Assembly (NCBI GenBank): GCA_903845115.1
Contig: CAIMWE010000121.1
Coordinates: forward strand, 1 to 50,571
DNA length: 50,571 nucleotides
Direction of reading: 5' to 3'
DNA from: an uncultured Acidobacteriota bacterium
GTDB lineage: Bacteria; Acidobacteriota; Thermoanaerobaculia; UBA5066
Shown: positions 31,942 to 47,267 of the stretch, piece by piece
Position numbering within the stretch: the stretch's first letter is position 1
Layout of the letters: every line of letters starts with the position of its first letter
Notes under the pieces: generated by a model
Told to the model about the DNA's origin: nothing
Databases searched by the model: none
What the model saw: the letters and a program-made list of their open reading frames with translations, nothing else
Position numbers and translations under genes: made by a program

Positions 31942-33282
31942 ATGAAGAGATTTTCCCCTCCCGCCGCCCTCTCCCTGGCGGCCTTCCTCCTCGCGGCCCC
32001 CCTGGCCGCGGAGGAGCTCTCCCTGAAGGGGGCCATGACCCGGGCCCGCGAGAAGTCGCGAGAGGTCTCCGCCGCCGGGGCCCGGAAGGAGGCCGCCGAG
32101 GCGCGGGCGAGGCAGGCGGGCGGGTTCCGCCTCCCCTCCGTCACCCTGTCGGAGGTCTACGTCCGGACCGACTCGCCGGCCGAGTCGTTCGCCTTCAAGC
32201 TGAACAAGCGGCAGTTCTCGTTCCCCGACTTCGTCTCGTCCGACCCGAACAACCCCGGATACAGCGGGACGGCGATGACGCGGGCGGAGGCGGTCCTCCC
32301 CCTCTTCACCGGCGGCGAGCTGTCGGGGCGGATCGCCCAGGCCGAGAAGGCCGCTTCCGCGGCCGGCAAGAGCGCCTCCTGGACCGCCGACAACGCCGCC
32401 CTCTCCGCGGCCGAGGCGTTCGTCATGGTGGCGCAGGCGGAGGAATACGTCCTCCTCCTCACCCGCGCCCGCGAGACGGTCGCGGCGCACGTGGAGCTCG
32501 CCCGGAACTACTCCGCGCAGGGGATGCTCGTCCGCTCGGAGCTGCTCCGCGCGGAGGTGGAGCTGGCCCGGGTGGACGACCTCCTCGAGGAGGCCAAAGG
32601 GCGCGTCCGCATCGCGAACGCGAACCTCGCGTTCCGGATGGGCGACCCGCAGGACCGGACCTGGACCCTCTCGGCCCTGGCCCCTCCCGGCGAGCTGCCC
32701 GGGACCGCGGCCGACTGGGTGAAGAGCGCCGAGGGCCGGAAGGACCTCGGCTCCGCCAGGGACCTCCTGGCCGCCGGCGAGCTGGAGGAGAAGGTCAAGA
32801 AGTCGGGCTTCCTGCCGAAGCTGGCCGTCGTCGGGCGCTACGACATGTACGGCACGAACCTCTTCGGCACCGACGGGAAGTTCGGGACGGTGATGGCCGC
32901 CCTCTCTTGGAACGTCTTCTCGGGCGGCTCGGATCGCGCCGCCGTGATCGCCGCCCGCGAGGAGGCCAGGGCCGGGCGCGAGGACGTCGCCCGCTTCGCG
33001 GACGGCGTCGCCCTCGAGGTCCGTCAGGCCTACGAGGAGGCGTCCACCGCCCGGGCCCGGCACGCCACCGCGGCCAGGGCGCTCGGAGCCGCCCGGGAGG
33101 CCGAGCGGATCACCTCGGAGCGGTTCCAGGGAGGCGTCGTGAAGATGCTCGACCTCCTCGACGCCGCCACCGCCCGGCGGGAAGCCGAGACCCGCGAGCT
33201 GGTCGCCCGCGCCGACGCGCAGTCGGCAGCCCTCCGGCTGGCCGTCAAGGCCGGCCGCGCCCCCGAGACGGTCCTCCCGTGA
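31942..33282 (+). CDS. TolC-family outer-membrane efflux protein
   Basis: A 446-residue outer-membrane factor with a signal peptide (M-K-R-F-S, cleaved near A-A-E-E) and two helical repeats typical of TolC (alanine/glutamate-rich coiled coils at about 25-230 and 240-440, with an L-P-K-L-A-V-V-G-R-Y strand region between). It forms the trench through periplasm and outer membrane for the RND pump encoded downstream. The start lies immediately after a strong promoter without a ribosome binding site. It opens a nine-gene run ending at 39656. Confidence 0.9.
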   Translation: MKRFSPPAALSLAAFLLAAPLAAEELSLKGAMTRAREKSREVSAAGARKEAAEARARQAGGFRLPSVTLSEVYVRTDSPAESFAFKLNKRQFSFPDFVSSDPNNPGYSGTAMTRAEAVLPLFTGGELSGRIAQAEKAASAAGKSASWTADNAALSAAEAFVMVAQAEEYVLLLTRARETVAAHVELARNYSAQGMLVRSELLRAEVELARVDDLLEEAKGRVRIANANLAFRMGDPQDRTWTLSALAPPGELPGTAADWVKSAEGRKDLGSARDLLAAGELEEKVKKSGFLPKLAVVGRYDMYGTNLFGTDGKFGTVMAALSWNVFSGGSDRAAVIAAREEARAGREDVARFADGVALEVRQAYEEASTARARHATAARALGAAREAERITSERFQGGVVKMLDLLDAATARREAETRELVARADAQSAALRLAVKAGRAPETVLP

Positions 33283-33299
33283 CGACGACCGAAGAAGAG

Positions 33300-34454
33300 A
33301 TGAAGGACGAAATGAAGGTCAAGAAGATGAGCCGGACTCCCCTCTCCGCGATCGGCGCCCTCCTGGCGGCCATGGCCCTCTCCCTCGCGTTCGGCTGCGG
33401 CCACGGCGACAGGAAGGAAGGCGAGACGGCCAAGCTGCCCGCCGTTCGCGCCTCCCTCGCCACCGCCGAGGCCGCCGAGATCCCCCAGCGCATCGAGCTC
33501 TCCGGCACGGTCGAGGCCGACCGGACGGCGGCCGTCTCGAGCCGTGTGATGGCCTCGGTCACCTCCGTCCTGGTCAGGGCGGGCGACCCGGTCAAGGCCG
33601 GGCAGCTCCTCCTGGAGATCGACCCGCAGACGGCCAGGGGGCAGGAAGCCCAGGCCAAGGGAGCGCTCGCCCAGGCCAAGGCCGGGCTCGCCCTGGCCGA
33701 GAAGAACTACGAGCGCTACAAGGCGCTGCAGAAGAGCGGCTCGGCCTCCGACCTCGAGCTGGACATGGCCCGCATGCAGTACGAGCAGGCCAGGGGGGCC
33801 GTCGAGCAGGGGGCCGGTGCCGTCGAGGCGGCCTCCTCGGTCGCCCGCGAGTCCCGCGTCGTCGCCCCCTTCGACGGCCGCGTCTCGGCCCGGCCGGTGG
33901 AGGCGGGCGACCTCGCCGCCCCAGGCCGCCCCCTCGTGATGGTCGAATCGGGCGAAGGGCGGCGGCTCACCGTCGCCGTCCCCGAGAGCGTCGTCGCCGC
34001 CTCCGGGCTCTCCGCCGGAAAGGTCCTTCCGATCCGGATCGACTCGCTCCCCGGCCGGACCGACCTCACGGGGAAAGTGGTCGAGATGTCCCCGGGCGCC
34101 GACCCGGCGAGCCACACGTTCATGGTGAAGCTAGAGATCTCGGGCGCCCGCGTCGCGAGCGGCCTCACCGGGCGGACCTACGTCGACTCCGGAAAGCGGA
34201 AGGCGGTCCTCGTCCCGGAGGGCGCGATCCTCTCGCAGGGAGGCCTCCAGCTCGTCGTCGTGAGGGACTCGGCCGGCAAGGCCCGCTCGCGGGCCGTGAC
34301 GGCAGCCAGCTCCGGCCCCGACGCCGGCCTCGGCCGGCGCGAGGTCCTCTCCGGCCTCGCGGGAGGGGAGGAGGTCCTCGTGGGCCTCGGCTCCGTCCCG
34401 GCCGACGGATCGCCCGTCGAGGTTTCGGCCGCCGCGCCCGAGGCCAAGAAGTGA
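33300..34454 (+). CDS. RND efflux membrane-fusion (periplasmic adaptor) protein
   Basis: About 384 residues. A hydrophobic leader (L-S-A-I-G-A-L-L-A-A-M-A-L-S-L-A-F-G-C) ends in a cysteine, so it is probably a lipoprotein, though the -2 phenylalanine is unusual. Then a biotinyl-lipoyl-like domain (V-E-A-D-R-T-A-A-V-S-S-R), a coiled-coil hairpin (about 120-190), and P-F-D-G-R-V-S-A-R-P-V-E-A-G-D-L, the standard HlyD/AcrA strand. Several starts are possible: GTG 33279 overlapping the tolC stop, ATG 33300, 33312 or 33330. It couples the inner-membrane pump to TolC. Confidence 0.9.
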   Translation: MKDEMKVKKMSRTPLSAIGALLAAMALSLAFGCGHGDRKEGETAKLPAVRASLATAEAAEIPQRIELSGTVEADRTAAVSSRVMASVTSVLVRAGDPVKAGQLLLEIDPQTARGQEAQAKGALAQAKAGLALAEKNYERYKALQKSGSASDLELDMARMQYEQARGAVEQGAGAVEAASSVARESRVVAPFDGRVSARPVEAGDLAAPGRPLVMVESGEGRRLTVAVPESVVAASGLSAGKVLPIRIDSLPGRTDLTGKVVEMSPGADPASHTFMVKLEISGARVASGLTGRTYVDSGKRKAVLVPEGAILSQGGLQLVVVRDSAGKARSRAVTAASSGPDAGLGRREVLSGLAGGEEVLVGLGSVPADGSPVEVSAAAPEAKK

Positions 34455-37400
34455 GCGATCCCTCCAGGAACATCGCGAGGGAGGCCCTCCGCCTCAAGAT
34501 GACCCGGCGCCCCATCGGGGCCTCGGGCCGGATCGCCAGGGCCTTTCTCGAGTCGAAGCTGACCCCGCTCCTCGTCGTCTTCTCGCTCCTCGTCGGCGCC
34601 TTCGCCGTCCTGGTGACGCCGCGAGAGGAGGAGCCCCAGATCAAGGTCCCGATGATCGACGTCTTCCTGGCGATGCCGGGTGCGACGGCCGACGAGGCCG
34701 AGCGCCGGCTCATCGGCCCGGTCGAGAAGGCGATCTACCAGATCCCGAACGTCGAGTACGTCTACTCCACCACCCAGCCGTCCGGCGGGATCGTCATCGT
34801 CCGCTTCCTCGTCGGGACCGACCCCGACCAGGCCGTCGTCCGCGTCCGGACGAAGCTCGCCGAGCTCGCGCCGCAGCTTCCGCCCGGCGCGATGCCGCCC
34901 GTCGTCGTCTCCCGTGGCATCGACGACGTCCCGGCGGTCGCCTGGACCCTCTGGTCCAAGGACGCCTCCCCGACCCAGATCCGCCAGGTGGCCGAGGAGC
35001 TGAAGTCCGAGCTGACGCGCCACCCGCGCGTCGCCCAGGTGACGGTCCTCGGCGGGCAGAGGCGGGTCGTCCGGGTCACCTTCGACCGGGACCGGCTCGC
35101 CTCGCACCACGCCTCGCTCCTCCAGGCGTACCAGGCGCTCTCGACGCTGAACTGGCGCCTCCCCGCAGGGACCTTCTCCTCCGGCAACCTGGAGACGCAG
35201 GTCGAGGTCGGCTCCCTCCTCCGTTCGGCCGACGAGGTCGGGAACGTCGCGATCGGCGTTTACGGCGGCCGGCCGGTCTTCCTCCGCGAGGTGGCGACCG
35301 TGGCCGACGGCCCGGAGGAGCCCTCGCAGTACGCCTGGCTGATGGCCGGCGCGGCCGGCGCCGAGAAGGGGCTGCCGGCCGGCACCGACGCTCCCGCGGT
35401 CACGATCGCCGTCTCCAAGAAGCCCGGGACGAACGCGGTCGAGCTGGTCCAGGAGCTGGACCTCCTCGTCGCCCGGCTGAAGGGCCCGGTCGTCCCGTCG
35501 AACGTCACCATGACGAAGACGCGCGACTACGGCAAGACGGCAAACGAGAAGTCGTCGGAGCTGATGTTCCACGTGGGCCTCGCGACGATCTCGGTCGTGC
35601 TGCTGATGGCCTTCGCGCTCGGCCGGCGGGAGGCGCTCGTCGTCCTGGTCGCCGTCCCTACCACCCTGGCGCTGACCCTCGCCTCGTCGTACGTGTTCGG
35701 CTACACGCTGAACCGGGTCACCCTCTTCGCGCTCATCTTCGCGATCGGCATCCTGGTGGACGACGCGATCGTGGTGGTGGAGAACGTCCACCGGCACTAC
35801 GAGCTGGGGTGGGGCCCTCCCCGGCTGACGACCGTCTACGCGGTGGACGAGGTGGGGAACCCGACGATCCTGGCGACCTTCGCCGTCGTCGCCGCCCTCC
35901 TCCCCCTCGCCTTCGTCTCCGGCCTGATGGGCCCCTACATGCGCCCCATCCCGATCAACGCCTCGGCCGCGATGATCTTCTCGCTCTTCATCGCGTTCGT
36001 CGTCTCCCCCTGGCTCACCTTCAAGCTCTTCCGCAAGTACGCGGAGGCTCACATGAAGGAGGGGCACGCCTTCGAAGCGGGCGCCGAAACTCCGCAGGAG
36101 GACCGTCTCCACAGGTTCTACAAGGCCCTCTTCACGCCGCTGCTCGAGTCGAAGCTGAAGCGCTGGGCGCTCCTCGGCTCCGTCGTGGGCCTGCTCCTCC
36201 TCTCCATGGGGCTCGTCTACCTGAAGGTCGTCAAGGTCAAGATGCTCCCCTACGACAACAAGAGCGAGATCCAGGTGGTGCTCGACATGCCGGAGGGGAC
36301 GACCCTCGAGACGACCGCCGCGGCCGCTCGCGACCTGGCCGAGACGGTCCGCCATCTCCCCGAGGTGACCGACGTCGAGATCTACGCCGGGACGTCGGGG
36401 CCGTTCAACTTCAACGGCCTGGTGCGGCACTACTTCCTCCGCTCGGGCCCCCTCGTGGCCGACCTCCAGGTCAACCTCCTCCCGAAGGACGAGCGGAAGC
36501 GGGACAGCCACCCCTTCGCCAGGGACGTCCGGAACCTCATCGCTCCCGTTGCCAAGAAATGGAACGCCAACGTCAAGGTGACCGAGGTGCCCCCGGGACC
36601 CCCGGTCCTCTCGACGATGGTCGCCGAGATCTACGGCCCCTCGCTGGAGAAGCGGGTCGACCTGGCCCGGCAGGTGAGGAAGGTCTTCGAGGAGACTCCC
36701 GGGGTCGTGGACACCGACTGGCTGGTCGGGGCGTTCGGCTCCCCGGCCCCAAAGCTCGAGCTCGCGATCGACGGGGAGAAGGCCGCCCGCTCGGGGATCA
36801 CCTCCGAGATGGTCGTCCGGACGCTCCGGGTCGCCCTCGACGGGGCGGAGGCGGGGCTCCTCCGCGACGACCGGGCGCGCGAGGCGGTCCCCCTCGTCCT
36901 CCGGCTGGACCGGGCCCAGCGCTCCAGCCTGGACGGCCTCCTCGCCACCTCGGTCCACGGGTCCCAGGGGCAGCTGGTCCCGCTCCGGGAGCTGGTGACC
37001 GTGAAGGAGGGGACCCGCGAGCGGTTCATCTACCACAAGAACCTGCAGCCGGTGACCTACGTCCTGGCCGAGATGGCCGGCGTGGCGGAGGCCCCCGTCT
37101 ACGGGATCCTCGACATGGCGAAACGGATCGAGGCGCTGAAGGCGCCCGACGGCTCCCCCCTCGAGGTGATGTCGACCCACCTCCCGACCGACTCCACGCG
37201 CTACGCGATGAAGTGGGACGGCGAGTGGCACATCACCTACGAGGTCTTCCGCGACATGGGGATCGCTTTCGCGGCGGTGATCGTCCTGATCTACTTCCTC
37301 GTCGTCGGCTGGTTCCGGTCCTTCGTGACGCCGCTGATCATCATGGCGCCGATCCCGCTCACGCTGATCGGCATCCTCCCCTCCCACGGCTTCGGCGGCG

Positions 37401-37771
37401 TCTTCTTCACCGCCACCTCGATGATCGGGTTCATCGCGCTGGCCGGGATCATCGTCCGGAACTCCATCCTCCTCGTCGACTTCATCAACCTGGAGCTGGA
37501 GATGGGCGAGCGGCTCGAGGACGCCGTCGTCAAGGCGGGCGCCGTCCGCTTCCGGCCGATCGTCCTGACCGCGGCGGCCCTCGTCGTCGGCGGGCTCGTG
37601 ATCCTCCTCGACCCGATCTTCCAGGGGCTCGCCGTGGCCCTCATCTCGGGCGTCGTCGTGGCCACCGCCCTCACCCTGATCGTCATCCCGCTCATGTACT
37701 TCATGTACCTCAAGACCGTCGGCACCGGCGCCGTCACCGCGGCGGATGCGCCAGAAAGCGAGACCCCATGA
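34451..37771 (+). CDS. RND-family efflux pump, AcrB/HAE-like
   Basis: A 1106-residue inner-membrane proton antiporter with 12 membrane segments in the usual 1+5, 1+5 order and two large periplasmic loops. TM4 contains G-I-L-V-D-D-A-I-V-V-V-E-N with the two aspartates of the proton relay; the second half has G-I-I-V-R-N-S-I-L-L-V-D-F. The double aspartate argues for an HAE-type drug/organic exporter rather than a CusA-type metal pump, which has one. Start is GTG at 34451, overlapping the adaptor stop (GTGA). Substrate is unknown; the ArsR and thiol-rich partners hint at an electrophile, metalloid or sulfur species. Confidence 0.94.
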   Translation: MSDPSRNIAREALRLKMTRRPIGASGRIARAFLESKLTPLLVVFSLLVGAFAVLVTPREEEPQIKVPMIDVFLAMPGATADEAERRLIGPVEKAIYQIPNVEYVYSTTQPSGGIVIVRFLVGTDPDQAVVRVRTKLAELAPQLPPGAMPPVVVSRGIDDVPAVAWTLWSKDASPTQIRQVAEELKSELTRHPRVAQVTVLGGQRRVVRVTFDRDRLASHHASLLQAYQALSTLNWRLPAGTFSSGNLETQVEVGSLLRSADEVGNVAIGVYGGRPVFLREVATVADGPEEPSQYAWLMAGAAGAEKGLPAGTDAPAVTIAVSKKPGTNAVELVQELDLLVARLKGPVVPSNVTMTKTRDYGKTANEKSSELMFHVGLATISVVLLMAFALGRREALVVLVAVPTTLALTLASSYVFGYTLNRVTLFALIFAIGILVDDAIVVVENVHRHYELGWGPPRLTTVYAVDEVGNPTILATFAVVAALLPLAFVSGLMGPYMRPIPINASAAMIFSLFIAFVVSPWLTFKLFRKYAEAHMKEGHAFEAGAETPQEDRLHRFYKALFTPLLESKLKRWALLGSVVGLLLLSMGLVYLKVVKVKMLPYDNKSEIQVVLDMPEGTTLETTAAAARDLAETVRHLPEVTDVEIYAGTSGPFNFNGLVRHYFLRSGPLVADLQVNLLPKDERKRDSHPFARDVRNLIAPVAKKWNANVKVTEVPPGPPVLSTMVAEIYGPSLEKRVDLARQVRKVFEETPGVVDTDWLVGAFGSPAPKLELAIDGEKAARSGITSEMVVRTLRVALDGAEAGLLRDDRAREAVPLVLRLDRAQRSSLDGLLATSVHGSQGQLVPLRELVTVKEGTRERFIYHKNLQPVTYVLAEMAGVAEAPVYGILDMAKRIEALKAPDGSPLEVMSTHLPTDSTRYAMKWDGEWHITYEVFRDMGIAFAAVIVLIYFLVVGWFRSFVTPLIIMAPIPLTLIGILPSHGFGGVFFTATSMIGFIALAGIIVRNSILLVDFINLELEMGERLEDAVVKAGAVRFRPIVLTAAALVVGGLVILLDPIFQGLAVALISGVVVATALTLIVIPLMYFMYLKTVGTGAVTAADAPESETP

Positions 37772-37959
37772 CCGTCAACGACACGCTCCGCGCCATCGCG
37801 GGATTCTTCGTCCTCGTCTCCGTCGCGCTCGGCTATTTCGTCCACCCCGGCTTCTTCCTCTTCACCGCCTTCGTCGGGGCGAACCTCCTGCAGTCGGGCT
37901 TCAGCAAGACGTGCCCGATGATGCTGATCCTCCGCAAGGCGGGCGTCCGGGAAGGGTGA
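37768..37959 (+). CDS. DUF2892 small membrane protein
   Basis: A 63-residue protein with two membrane helices (about 8-25 and 28-45) and the short tail S-K-T-C-P-M-M-L-I-L-R-K-A-G-V, the DUF2892 signature also found at the end of YgaP rhodaneses. The single cysteine is at the membrane boundary. The ATG overlaps the RND stop (ATGA). It is probably an accessory of the pump; the S-K-T-C-P cysteine may handle thiols or sulfane sulfur, which is inference. Confidence 0.85.
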   Translation: MTVNDTLRAIAGFFVLVSVALGYFVHPGFFLFTAFVGANLLQSGFSKTCPMMLILRKAGVREG

Positions 37960-37987: not shown

Positions 37988-38272
37988 GTGAAGCTGCTGA
38001 TGCTCATCGTCGACGGCGACAAGAAGGAGGAGGTCGAGGTCCTCCTCGGCCGCGCCGGCGTGACCGGCTACACCGAAATCCCCGGCGCCGTCGGGCGGGG
38101 CGCCACGGGCTTGAAGCTCGGCTCGGGCGCGTTCCCGAGGACCTCGGCCGTCATCTTCACGATCGTCGACGACGAGGCGCTGGCGGAGCTGACCCGCCAG
38201 GTGAAGGCCTTCTGCGCCGACTGCGGGGAGCGGCTGAAGATCGTCGTCTGGGGGGTCCAGGAGGTCCTGTGA
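37988..38272 (+). CDS. PII-like transporter-associated protein (PG0541 family)
   Basis: A 94-residue protein with the beta-alpha-beta-beta-alpha-beta pattern of small PII-like proteins: M-K-L-L-M-L-I-V-D-G-D, G-V-T-G-Y-T-E-I, V-I-F-T-I-V-D-D and K-I-V-V-W-G-V-Q-E-V-L. A C-A-D-C pair lies near residue 77. It resembles the PG0541 family that often sits beside RND pumps and may gate them in response to a nucleotide or ligand. Start is GTG at 37988 behind a strong AGGAGGAG. The stop overlaps a GTG of the arsR frame. Confidence 0.8.
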   Translation: MKLLMLIVDGDKKEEVEVLLGRAGVTGYTEIPGAVGRGATGLKLGSGAFPRTSAVIFTIVDDEALAELTRQVKAFCADCGERLKIVVWGVQEVL

Positions 38273-38278
38273 GAACGG

Positions 38279-38322
38279 TTGACAGCACCCCCGTCGAGAG
38301 CATATGGTTAATGAGTTATATG
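38279..38322 (+). promoter_or_regulatory. arsR promoter with CATAT/ATATG operator
   Basis: TTGACA at 38279-38284 and TATGGT at 38303-38308, 18-bp spacing. CATAT (38301-38305) and ATATG (38318-38322) form an inverted repeat with a 12-bp spacer around GGTTAATGAGTT, a span expected for a dimeric ArsR repressor. CATATGGTTA matches CATATAGTTA of the tolC promoter. Start of transcription near 38315 would again leave little or no leader before an ATG at 38320. Confidence 0.65.
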
Positions 38323-38724
38323 AAAGTCCGCACCGCGGCGGCCCCGAAGGAGATGCTCCTCGACGAGATCGCCGAGTGGCTGAAGGCGATGGCCGACCCG
38401 ACCCGCCTCAGGATCCTGCACTCGATGCAGAACGGCGAGAAGTGCGTGACCGACCTCCTGGAGGGAATGGAATGCAGCCAGGCGAACGTCTCGAAGCACC
38501 TGGCGATCCTCCGGAAGGGCGGCCTGGTCGACTGCCGGCGCGAGGGGTCGAGCGTCTACTACCGGATCGCCGACCCGGCTGTCTACGAGATCTGTGGCAC
38601 CGTCTGCGACTCGCTCCAGCGGGACCTGGCCGACCGGCAGGAGGGCCTGGCCCGCGGCCGGGCGGAGTTCCAGAACAAGCTCCAGGCGAAGGGCCAGGCC
38701 AGCGGACGCGGAAGGGCCCGATGA
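38311..38724 (+). CDS. ArsR-family transcriptional regulator
   Basis: About 137 residues with the winged-helix core A-M-A-D-P-T-R-L-R-I-L-H-S-M-Q, C-V-T-D-L-L, E-C-S-Q-A-N-V-S-K-H-L-A-I-L-R-K and R-E-G-S-S-V-Y-Y-R-I, standard for ArsR/SmtB. Cysteines lie in K-C-V-T-D-L, M-E-C-S-Q and V-D-C-R, plus one in E-I-C-G-T-V-C, so a thiol/redox or metalloid signal is plausible. The frame is open from a GTG at 38269 that overlaps the PII-like gene, but the promoter lies inside that extension; ATG 38311 or 38320 is likelier. Probable repressor of its own and the tolC promoter. Confidence 0.88.
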   Translation: MSYMKVRTAAAPKEMLLDEIAEWLKAMADPTRLRILHSMQNGEKCVTDLLEGMECSQANVSKHLAILRKGGLVDCRREGSSVYYRIADPAVYEICGTVCDSLQRDLADRQEGLARGRAEFQNKLQAKGQASGRGRAR

Positions 38725-38930
38725 GCCCGGACCTCCTCTGGTTCGGGGCTTTCCTGATCGGCTGGATCTTCCTCCAGCAGGTAATCCTGCCCCGTCTCGG
38801 CGTCCCCACGTGAGGGTCGCCCGGTCCCGCCGGCGGCGGGGCCTCGTGCTCGGTCAAGAAGTCCCCGGCCGCGGCGACTGAAGCTCCCGCGGCCCCTGCC
38901 CCCGTCCCCCCGACCCACCGCAAGGACTGA
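38721..38930 (+). CDS. Candidate small membrane selenoprotein (TGA at codon 31 read as Sec)
   Basis: Read conventionally this is a 30-residue membrane peptide ending at TGA 38811-38813. Read through, it is 69 residues: one membrane helix (L-L-W-F-G-A-F-L-I-G-W-I-F-L-Q-Q-V-I-L), L-P-R-L-G-V-P-T-U, then a soluble tail with A-S-C-S-V-K-K and an alanine/proline-rich end, stopping 5 bp before the fmdB ATG. The TGA is followed by a 9-bp hairpin with GGC loop at the correct SECIS distance, matched in selD. Its ATG overlaps the arsR stop (ATGA). The tail has normal codon use for this genome. I infer a thiol/selenol redox partner anchored in the membrane. No relative can be confirmed without a search. 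Confidence 0.72.
38811..38843 (+). promoter_or_regulatory. Candidate bacterial SECIS element of the small selenoprotein
   Basis: After TGA (38811-38813) and 9 nt, GGTCCCGCC (38823-38831) pairs with GGCGGGGCC (38835-38843) over 9 bp with one T-G wobble; the apical loop is GGC, beginning 19 nt after the TGA. Known bacterial SECIS hairpins have a G early in a small apical loop about 16-37 nt after the UGA. The E. coli fdhF loop GG falls at the same distance. Confidence 0.65.
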
Positions 38931-38935
38931 ACGCC

Positions 38936-39151
38936 ATGCCCATGTACGAATTCCGCTGCCGCGAATGCGGCGCCCGCTTCGAGGAGCTCCGGGGCCTGAA
39001 CGAGCCCGATGCGGGCGTCGAGTGTCCCAAGTGCGGCGGAGGCCGCGTCGAGCGACTCCTCTCGTCCTTCGCGACTTCGGCGACCTCGGCCGCTTCGAGC
39101 CCGTCCGGGAGCTCCTCGGGCGGATCGTGCGGCCCTCGCGGTTTCTCCTGA
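38936..39151 (+). CDS. FmdB-family zinc-ribbon protein
   Basis: A 71-residue protein starting M-P-M-Y-E-F-R-C-R-E-C-G-A-R-F-E with a second C-P-K-C-G pair, the FmdB/CxxC regulatory zinc ribbon, then a serine/glycine-rich tail ending C-G-P-R-G-F-S. AAGGA lies 9 nt before the ATG. Its terminal TGA is followed two codons later by TAG and has no SECIS-like hairpin, so it is a true stop. Function in the efflux cluster is unknown; FmdB ribbons were first linked to formamidase regulation. Confidence 0.85.
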   Translation: MPMYEFRCRECGARFEELRGLNEPDAGVECPKCGGGRVERLLSSFATSATSAASSPSGSSSGGSCGPRGFS

Positions 39152-39251: not shown

Positions 39252-39656
39252 GTGAAGCACACATCGGTCGCCATCGAGGGAGTCTCTCCTCTTCCCTATG
39301 CCGAGACCGTCGCGAGGGCGAAGCAGGCCCTCGCCGCCGAGGGCTTCGGCGTCCTGACCGAGATCGACTTCGCCGCGAAGATGAAGGAGAAGCTCGGCGC
39401 CGACCTTCCCCCGTACGTGATCCTCGGCGCCTGCCATCCCCCCTCGGCTCTGAAGGCGTTCCTGGCCGTCCCGGAGGTGGGGGTGCTCCTCCCCTGTAAC
39501 GTCTGCGTGTCGGTGGAGGGGGGCGAGACGGTCGTCCGGGCGATGGACCCGTCCCCGGTCATGGGCCTCATCGGCAACCCTGATCTCGCCCCGGTCGGCG
39601 CCGAGGTCCGCGCCGCCCTGACCCGCGTGATCGAGGCTTGCGAGAAAGGGGCCTGA
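39252..39656 (+). CDS. DUF302 domain protein
   Basis: A 134-residue soluble protein of the DUF302 family: F-G-V-L-T-E-I-D-F-A-A-K-M-K-E-K-L-G, Y-V-I-L-G-A-C-H-P-P-S-A-L-K-A and L-L-P-C-N-V-C-V-S-V. DUF302 proteins bind small ligands, and members often adjoin redox or sulfur genes. The C-N-V-C pair and the cysteine in G-A-C-H-P fit the thiol theme of this cluster. Start is GTG at 39252 with AAGGAG 8 nt upstream. It is the last gene of the efflux run. Confidence 0.85.
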   Translation: MKHTSVAIEGVSPLPYAETVARAKQALAAEGFGVLTEIDFAAKMKEKLGADLPPYVILGACHPPSALKAFLAVPEVGVLLPCNVCVSVEGGETVVRAMDPSPVMGLIGNPDLAPVGAEVRAALTRVIEACEKGA

Positions 39657-46157: not shown

Positions 46158-47267
46158 TCATGGACGAACCGAGATCGTCCCCGCCTCCGCCCCGCGGACC
46201 GGGTGAAATCTGCCGATCACTGCCGCCTTCGCGTCCCCCGCTTCCCTGATCGCCGACGCCAGCGCTTCGGCGTCCCTCTCCGGCACCGCGAAGAGGAGGC
46301 CTCCGGAAGTCTGCGCGTCGGCCAGGAGGAGAAGGTCCGGCTCCCCGAGGCCGGGCGCCTCGACGTACCGCCGGGAGGAGGCGAGGTTCCGGTGCGAGCC
46401 GTCCGGAGCCAGGCCGGCCTCGACGAGGCGGCGGGCCCCCGGCAGGAGCGGGACCGACCGGAGGTCGATCTCCGCGTCGACGCCGCTGCCGGATGCCATC
46501 TCCCTCAGGTGGCCGAAGAGACCGTATCCGGTCACGTCGGTGCAGGCTGAGACCGGGAACGAGTCGGCCGCCCGCGCCGCCGACCGGTTCAGGCGCGCCA
46601 TCGTCTCGACCACCGTGCGCTCCTCCTCCTGCCCGATCTCCGGCGCCGGCCGGAAGAAGGTCGCGAGGGCCCTGGCGCGCAGCGCCGAGGAGAGGATCCC
46701 GGAGCCGATCGGCTTCGTGAGGACGAGGAGGTCGCCGGGCCGGGCTCCGACGTTCCGGCGGATCCGCGACGCCTTCGCCCGGCCGTTGATGACCATGCCG
46801 TAGACCGGGACGTCGAAGTCGGTCGTGTGCCCCCCGAGGATGGGGATCCCCGCTTCCGTCGTCGTCTTCGCCCCGCCCGCGAGGATCTCGGCGAGGACCT
46901 CCAGCGGGAGCTTCGCCGTCGGGAAGCCGACCACGTTCAGGGCGAAGAGGGGCGCGCCCCCCATGGCGTAGATGTCCGAGAGAGCGTTGGCCGCCGCGAT
47001 CCGGCCGAAGTCGAACGGGCTCTCGACGATGGGGGTGAAGAAGTCGACCGTCGAGAGGATCGTCTCGGCTTCGGGATCGTCCGCCGCGCCGATCCGGAAG
47101 ACGGCGGCATCGTCGGCCGACTCGAAGCCGACCAGCGCCCCGTCCCCCGCCCGGGCGGGGAGGGCGGACAGCAGTTTCGCCAGGTCAGCCTGACCCAGCT
47201 TGCACGCTCACCCCGCGGACGACGCGAACGTCAGGATCGAGGGGTGGCTCCGGTGCAGGTTCGCCAT
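46158..47267 (-). CDS. selD: Selenide, water dikinase, itself a selenoprotein (TGA at codon 20 read as Sec)
   Basis: A 369-residue enzyme that makes selenophosphate from selenide and ATP, the selenium donor for tRNA-Sec and 2-selenouridine. The frame from ATG 47267 reads 19 residues, then TGA (47210-47208), then A-C-K-L-G, giving G-U-A-C-K at the catalytic loop where other SelD proteins have Cys or Sec. Downstream, D-D-A-A-V-F, T-V-D-F-F-T-P-I-V, A-N-A-L-S-D-I-Y-A-M-G-G and G-H-T-T-D are diagnostic. Without readthrough the first ATG (46964) would lose the active site. A SECIS-like hairpin follows the TGA. Genes selA, selB and selC are not in the window. Confidence 0.93.
47179..47210 (-). promoter_or_regulatory. 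Candidate SECIS element in selD
   Basis: On the minus strand, after TGA (47210-47208) and 8 nt, GCTGGGTCA (47199-47191) pairs with TGACCTGGC (47187-47179) over 9 bp including two G-T wobbles; the loop is GGC, starting 18 nt after the TGA. Geometry and loop sequence match the hairpin in the small selenoprotein gene at 38811-38843. Confidence 0.75.

Follow-up and report, generated by a model that had tools for sequence, protein, structure and literature searches.

A probable new family of single-pass membrane selenoproteins with almost no cysteine forms in Acidobacteriota

A small gene at positions 38721-38930 of a contig from an uncultured Acidobacteriota bacterium almost certainly encodes a genuine selenoprotein that represents a new family of microproteins spanning the inner membrane once. 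The window, i.e., the whole stretch of DNA analysed, comprises 50,571 nucleotides. The assignment rests on a conserved TGA codon, a covarying stem downstream of it, codon periodicity on both sides of it and co-occurrence with the selenocysteine (Sec) machinery, which together go well beyond chance. At the UGA that follows the motif LP[RK]xGVxT, SelB and tRNA-Sec would insert selenocysteine under the direction of a hairpin located 14-20 nt downstream.

The gene and its product

When TGA is read as U, the frame gives MSPDLLWFGAFLIGWIFLQQVILPRLGVPTUGSPGPAGGGASCSVKKSPAAATEAPAAPAPVPPTHRKD (69 residues). Codon 31 is the sole in-frame TGA inside the gene, and the terminal stop is another TGA (38928-38930). 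The ATG at 38721 overlaps the stop of the arsR frame (38269-38724), and 5 nt separate the selenoprotein stop from the ATG of the fmdB-like gene at 38936. A sequence-only reading of the window had described a 30-codon frame that stops at TGA and then stays open until 5 bp before the next gene, a start overlapping the arsR stop, and a single-helix membrane protein with L-P-R-L-G-V-P-T-U and one cysteine in its tail; coordinates and translation confirm each of these points. Features of the window are collected in Table 1.

Table 1. Positions of the selenoprotein gene, its elements and other genes of interest in the window
Feature	Position	Strand	Remarks
RND periplasmic adaptor (HlyD/CusB type)	33279..34454	+	Pfam HlyD_D23 3e-15
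RND transporter (AcrB/AcrD/AcrF family)	34451..37771	+	Pfam ACR_tran 1.8e-147
YgaP-like transmembrane domain protein (DUF2892)	37768..37959	+	63 residues; Pfam YgaP-like_TM 4.8e-11
P-II-like protein gene	37988..38272	+	Pfam P-II 1.6e-8
ArsR-family repressor gene	38269..38724	+	Pfam HTH_5 2e-15
Probable selenoprotein gene	38721..38930	+	69 residues, Sec at codon 31; TGA read as U
Predicted transmembrane helix	38727..38798	+	residues 3-26, AlphaFold2 model
Putative recoded UGA (selenocysteine 31)	38811..38813	+	TGA across family; TGT (Cys) once
SECIS-like hairpin	38825..38841	+	7-bp stem, nt 15-21/25-31 from T of TGA; apical loop GGC, nt 22-24
FmdB-type zinc ribbon protein	38936..39151	+	Pfam Zn_ribbon_8 2.4e-16
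DUF302 protein	39252..39656	+	Pfam DUF302 1e-20
selD	about 46180-47240 (gene about 46272-47231)	-	one in-frame TGA (U-A-C-K)

An AlphaFold2 model made with 40 members places the helix at residues 3-26, with block pLDDT values of 93/93/77, followed by a disordered tail. The maximal 19-residue Kyte-Doolittle value has a family mean of 2.28. The C-terminal side of the helix carries the more positive charge in 83% of members, and by the positive-inside rule the Sec side is therefore probably cytosolic. The C-terminus would thus probably lie in the cytosol, with the selenol about 7 residues past the hydrophobic stretch and usually accompanied by a partner cysteine.

Distribution and variation of the family

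A stop-tolerant search with the 69-residue product, reading through any stop, found dozens of clear relatives in 148 related genomes (self-match E 6e-42), and every row at E <= 4e-6 had an in-frame TGA. Of 297 genomes from the phylum, 68 were matched by a profile of 40 members (A1); a broader profile (A2) matched 94 of 396, i.e., about a quarter, and 60 of 149 within the class. Members are about 45-80 residues long.

The codon after LP[RK]xGVxT is TGA in 118 of 119 distinct members, TGT (Cys) in one, and TAA or TAG in none, in a set collected with a pattern that required a stop or Cys at the site and was blind to other residues. The homology searches, which make no such demand, gave no residue other than stop or Cys there. 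Some profile rows carry no stop mark; one of them is the Cys member and the others end at profile positions 21-31, before the TGA. The TGA was seen for all of these short rows except that in G033 and a 21-position match at a contig end in G109. Homologues ending at the TGA site, which would speak for an ordinary stop, were looked for among these members, and the site held 118 TGA and one Cys codon.

Relatives with Cys at position 31 had been named in the sequence-only reading as possible support; such a form exists, as a single case. It was found solely in genome G316 (loci L103 and L169; TGT in L103), which is 99% complete and has no selA or selB match. The motif LP[RK]LGV[PG]TC gave nothing besides one chance match in a collection of 85,000 genomes, a tblastn search of plasmids with the Cys form gave no match, and neither did a scan of genome contigs with the single window protein. 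That chance match, which came from the profile scan of genome contigs, lies in Sphaerisporangium (L070); it was set aside because the membrane helix has no counterpart there and the flanking sequence is unrelated.

Two main shapes are seen. The wider family has ...LP[RK]xG[VI]xT-U-x4-C-..., often as MSxSCxVESRR, and the window's clade has LP[RK]LGVPT-U-[AG]VP[ND]PAGGR with the Cys further along. The next Cys lies four residues after U (U-x4-C) in 52 of 119 members and 10-20 residues after it in most others, the spacing ranging from 4 to 25 where a Cys is present. Because this second Cys is absent from 14 of 119 members, a U/C redox pair is not universal. Four genomes carry two different selenoprotein copies each: G009 (L009, L037), G115 (L016, L039), G141 (L018, L038), and G023 (L066, L133). 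At one locus (L059, about 3.0-3.4 kb, minus strand) the selenoprotein frame runs in frame into FmdB with no stop between, perhaps as a fusion, and the tail of another member (L046) holds extra CxxC pairs (CQSCGG, CPTCGC) resembling a zinc ribbon.

SECIS-like hairpin

The sequence-only reading had noted a SECIS-like hairpin after the TGA, and comparative covariation bears this out in both clades. Among 39 sequences of the window's clade, related and non-independent, the stem held in the same register (nt 15-21/25-31) has 6.33 of 7 pairs formed, vs. 5.57 (sd 0.08) with arms shuffled; 92% of cells are paired, and covariation reaches 0.373, a value attained by none of 500 shuffles (0.108 shuffled), while slid registers stay at or below 0.143. 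The U-x4-C group, aligned without gaps from the TGA (44 distinct sequences, again non-independent), has a 7-bp stem at nt 20-26/30-36, with 74.7% of cells paired vs. 55.9% in shuffles, both-side changes in 65 cells vs. 26.8, and covariation of 0.482 vs. 0.205 (0/500), falling to at most 0.247 when the register is shifted by 1-3 columns. The outcome was unchanged when entire arms were exchanged among sequences. The register is fixed within each clade and differs between the two, and a peak at a single register, different for each clade, is hard to explain otherwise than by a real hairpin. Across the family, a stem of at least 4 bp is present in 114 of 118 members and GG or GT in 108 of 114 loops.

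The single-sequence fold of the window hairpin is unremarkable in this GC-rich genome (z is +1.1 for one choice of stretch and -1.0 for another), and an Rfam scan of the region gave sub-threshold chance matches only. The same region of the Cys gene folds weakly (-7.7 kcal/mol, z +0.9). The hairpin resembles the type known from fdhF, the Escherichia coli formate dehydrogenase gene, in having a stem-loop at a fixed distance after UGA and a G-rich apical loop, and in the presence of SelA, SelB, tRNA-Sec, and SelD. In contrast to fdhF, most members have a loop of only 3-4 nt, and an outer stem is not evident; the fdhF protein is unrelated to the microprotein family. The window's loop at nt 22-24 coincides with what is presumably the place of the G/U of the fdhF loop.

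Translation beyond the UGA

Nucleotide differences in 26 close pairs were counted by codon position. Upstream of the UGA they number 71/34/169; the 14 codons that follow it have 28/26/74 (p 3e-8), and the stretch beyond those has 115/98/165 (p 7e-5). The excess at third positions after the UGA indicates that the frame there is translated. The tail sequence is poorly conserved across the family; what is kept downstream is the second Cys in most members, the third-position bias and the covarying hairpin, and the conservation past the TGA on which the first reading had made its proposal depend is thereby present.

Readings without selenocysteine fare poorly against these data. A 30-residue membrane peptide ending at the TGA, with the hairpin acting as an attenuator, terminator, or processing site, is very improbable: a hydrophobic peptide of that size is plausible alone and the stem is GC-rich in this genome, but with TGA in 118 members, TAA or TAG never stands in for it and TGT does so once, codon periodicity and a conserved Cys continue past it, and co-occurrence with selA or selB is near-complete. 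Two peptides, the first stopping at the TGA and the second re-initiated at the next codon, are still less credible. An ATG does stand right after the TGA in 38 of 118 members, but in two thirds, among them the window's gene, that codon is not a start (GCG, GGG, GCC, and others), and these members still keep the downstream frame and hairpin; re-initiation is rejected on the strength of these many members. A chance open frame behind a terminating TGA is rejected in view of the 118 TGA codons with no TAA or TAG, the codon periodicity, and the covariation.

Selenocysteine machinery

The genome from which the window comes has tRNA-Sec (64.8 bits), SelB, SelA (430 bits), and SelD (347 bits). The selD gene of the window had been expected to need the same recoding, and one in-frame TGA was found in it; judged by its sequence, SelD here is itself a selenoprotein. 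The absence of selA, selB, or selC, named beforehand as evidence against Sec insertion, was not observed: selA, selB, tRNA-Sec, and a Sec-type selD are all present.

In the 297-genome phylum sample, SelB (match threshold E <= 1e-60) occurs in 64 of 68 genomes with the family and in 196 of 297 overall (Fisher p 1.7e-9). Among the four family genomes lacking a SelB match, G002 and G255 have selA, and G263 and G316, the latter carrying the Cys form, have neither. When either gene is counted, 66 of 67 genomes with the Sec form in this set have a selB or selA match; the exception, G263, is an assembly of 64% completeness.

Comparison with known families

Neither the window protein nor any of 47 members is matched by a Pfam or NCBIfam 20.0 model, and the PDB has no chain that matches the selenoprotein. 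The 2026 list of 119 prokaryotic selenoprotein families (PMC13188914, Table 1) contains no fitting motif or small membrane family, the NCBIfam models given in that table for Haft & Gwadz 2023 and Haft & Tolstoy 2025 gave no match, and none of the nine new families of deep-Sep, compared by name, fits. No report of such a protein was found in the open literature, though papers outside it could hold one. Because it is absent from all these sources, the family appears to be a new one of a known kind, the selenoproteins, and the initial impression that it lies outside the established bacterial families holds against Pfam, NCBIfam, and the 119-family table.

Catalogued families (PMC13188914; NCBIfam) resemble it in being small and, for some, in occurring in metal, organometallic, or sulfur clusters, e.g., SAO, Tso, mercuric transport, YeeE/YedE, and rhodanese forms. 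They differ in that none has LP[RK]xGVxT-U-x4-C and in that most have Cys homologues, whereas here there are almost none. A Sec-containing FmdB-family protein was described in GOS data, in which FmdB itself carries Sec in CxxU/UxxU (PMC2398784); here, FmdB is the next gene and a Cys protein, and Sec resides in a separate membrane protein. GOS_A (PMC2398784) was weighed as a possible earlier description of the family; judged by its listing, which gives 155 Cys homologues, it does not fit.

Neighbouring genes

The gene order of the window, pump - YgaP-TM - P-II-like - ArsR - selenoprotein - FmdB - DUF302, is seen repeatedly in its class. The YgaP-like gene, between the RND and P-II-like genes, is masked in the list of open reading frames by a longer frame (35809-37959). 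Among 45 loci, the neighbours include DUF302 (25), ArsR (23), RND transporter (21), adaptor (19), YgaP-like TM (17, plus 4 of a second type), FmdB (15), P-II-like (13), and TolC-like (13) proteins. The P-II-like gene adjoins ArsR or the pump in 13 loci, and this recurrent protein is a possible pump regulator.

Other lineages have the selenoprotein gene downstream of MBL-rhodanese fusions, full YgaP (rhodanese plus TM), lipoprotein-like rhodanese, TauE, OsmC, or thioredoxin genes. The Cys form in G316 lies beside a CoA-disulfide-reductase/rhodanese gene and a YgaP-TM gene. The RND efflux setting proposed at first is therefore right for the window and too narrow for the family, which extends far more widely, to loci with rhodanese or MBL-rhodanese, TauE, OsmC, and thioredoxin. 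Rhodanese genes occur in some lineages only, with none near the window's cluster.

The closest PDB sequence relatives of the ArsR protein are the 13ct/6o8l-6o8o group, which we take to be the persulfide sensor SqrR. Of 24 ArsR proteins from family loci, 23 have a CX3C motif close to the C-terminus.

Possible roles

The most likely role of the family, put forward tentatively, is the handling of sulfane-sulfur (persulfide/polysulfide) stress at the membrane. It is suggested by neighbours that include ArsR, the YgaP-type domain, rhodanese, MBL-rhodanese, and the TauE sulfite exporter, as well as CoA-disulfide-reductase/rhodanese, OsmC, DUF302, and the RND pump. The selenol would take up sulfane sulfur or resolve persulfides at the cytosolic face of the membrane, and could hand the sulfur on, either to rhodanese or thioredoxin as partners or into export. 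Operons are known in which an ArsR-type regulator that responds to sulfide and sulfane sulfur is encoded with rhodanese or dioxygenase (PMC5823870, PMC12423496). The ygaV-ygaP operon of E. coli and the bigR/Blh operons, with their ArsR-type sulfide sensors and rhodanese or persulfide dioxygenase, are akin to those lineages in which ArsR, the YgaP-type TM domain, MBL-rhodanese, and TauE stand near the selenoprotein; they have no such microprotein, and the window's cluster differs from them in having a pump and no rhodanese nearby. The lack of a nearby rhodanese in RND-type clusters, the window's among them, weakens the sulfane-sulfur role. The neighbours of the Sec and Cys forms both point to sulfur transfer, and pump-type clusters point also to the efflux of something. 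RND-type clusters, including that of the window, could equally serve metals or organic toxins. In a more specific version of the sulfane-sulfur role, which is possible and somewhat doubtful, a membrane-anchored selenol would carry sulfane sulfur as a selenosulfide or selenopersulfide and so link persulfide sensing by ArsR to detoxification or RND export, a selenol and not a thiol being required.

The main alternative, itself rather unlikely, is a membrane-anchored metallochaperone: under the control of an ArsR-type metal sensor, the selenol would capture a thiophilic metal or metalloid (Hg, As, Cu, Cd, and the like) and pass it to the RND pump. The frequency of RND pump, adaptor, and ArsR genes (21, 19, and 23 of 45 loci), the CusB/HlyD type of the adaptor, and the implication of several Sec-containing transporter proteins in metal resistance (PMC13188914) argue for it. 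However, about half of the loci have no pump, several of those have sulfur-transfer genes, the Cys form adjoins CoA-disulfide-reductase/rhodanese and YgaP-like TM genes, and no metal-binding motif is seen beyond U plus C.

It is unlikely that the protein is a membrane redox switch, in which a Sec-Cys selenenylsulfide formed under oxidative or sulfur stress would signal to the P-II-like, YgaP-like, or ArsR protein and gate the pump. A P-II-like gene that adjoins the pump or ArsR (13 loci) and the U-x4-C spacing in 52 members are consistent with such a switch, but many loci lack a P-II-like gene, and the distance from U to Cys ranges from 4 to 25 residues where a Cys exists at all.

Significance

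Selenoprotein catalogues have been built mainly from pairs of Sec and Cys homologues or from proteins that look truncated. Such methods would be apt to overlook the present family, which has almost no Cys homologues and leaves a stub of only about 30 residues, and ordinary gene finders would truncate the gene at the TGA. It is surprising that the family is so abundant, its proteins so small, and its Cys forms so nearly absent. The family would add a membrane selenol to stress and efflux clusters with uncharacterised recurrent genes (DUF302, FmdB, YgaP-TM, and P-II-like), and may offer a handle on the function of those clusters and on the near-obligate use of Sec. It also suggests that further Cys-free selenoproteins await discovery.
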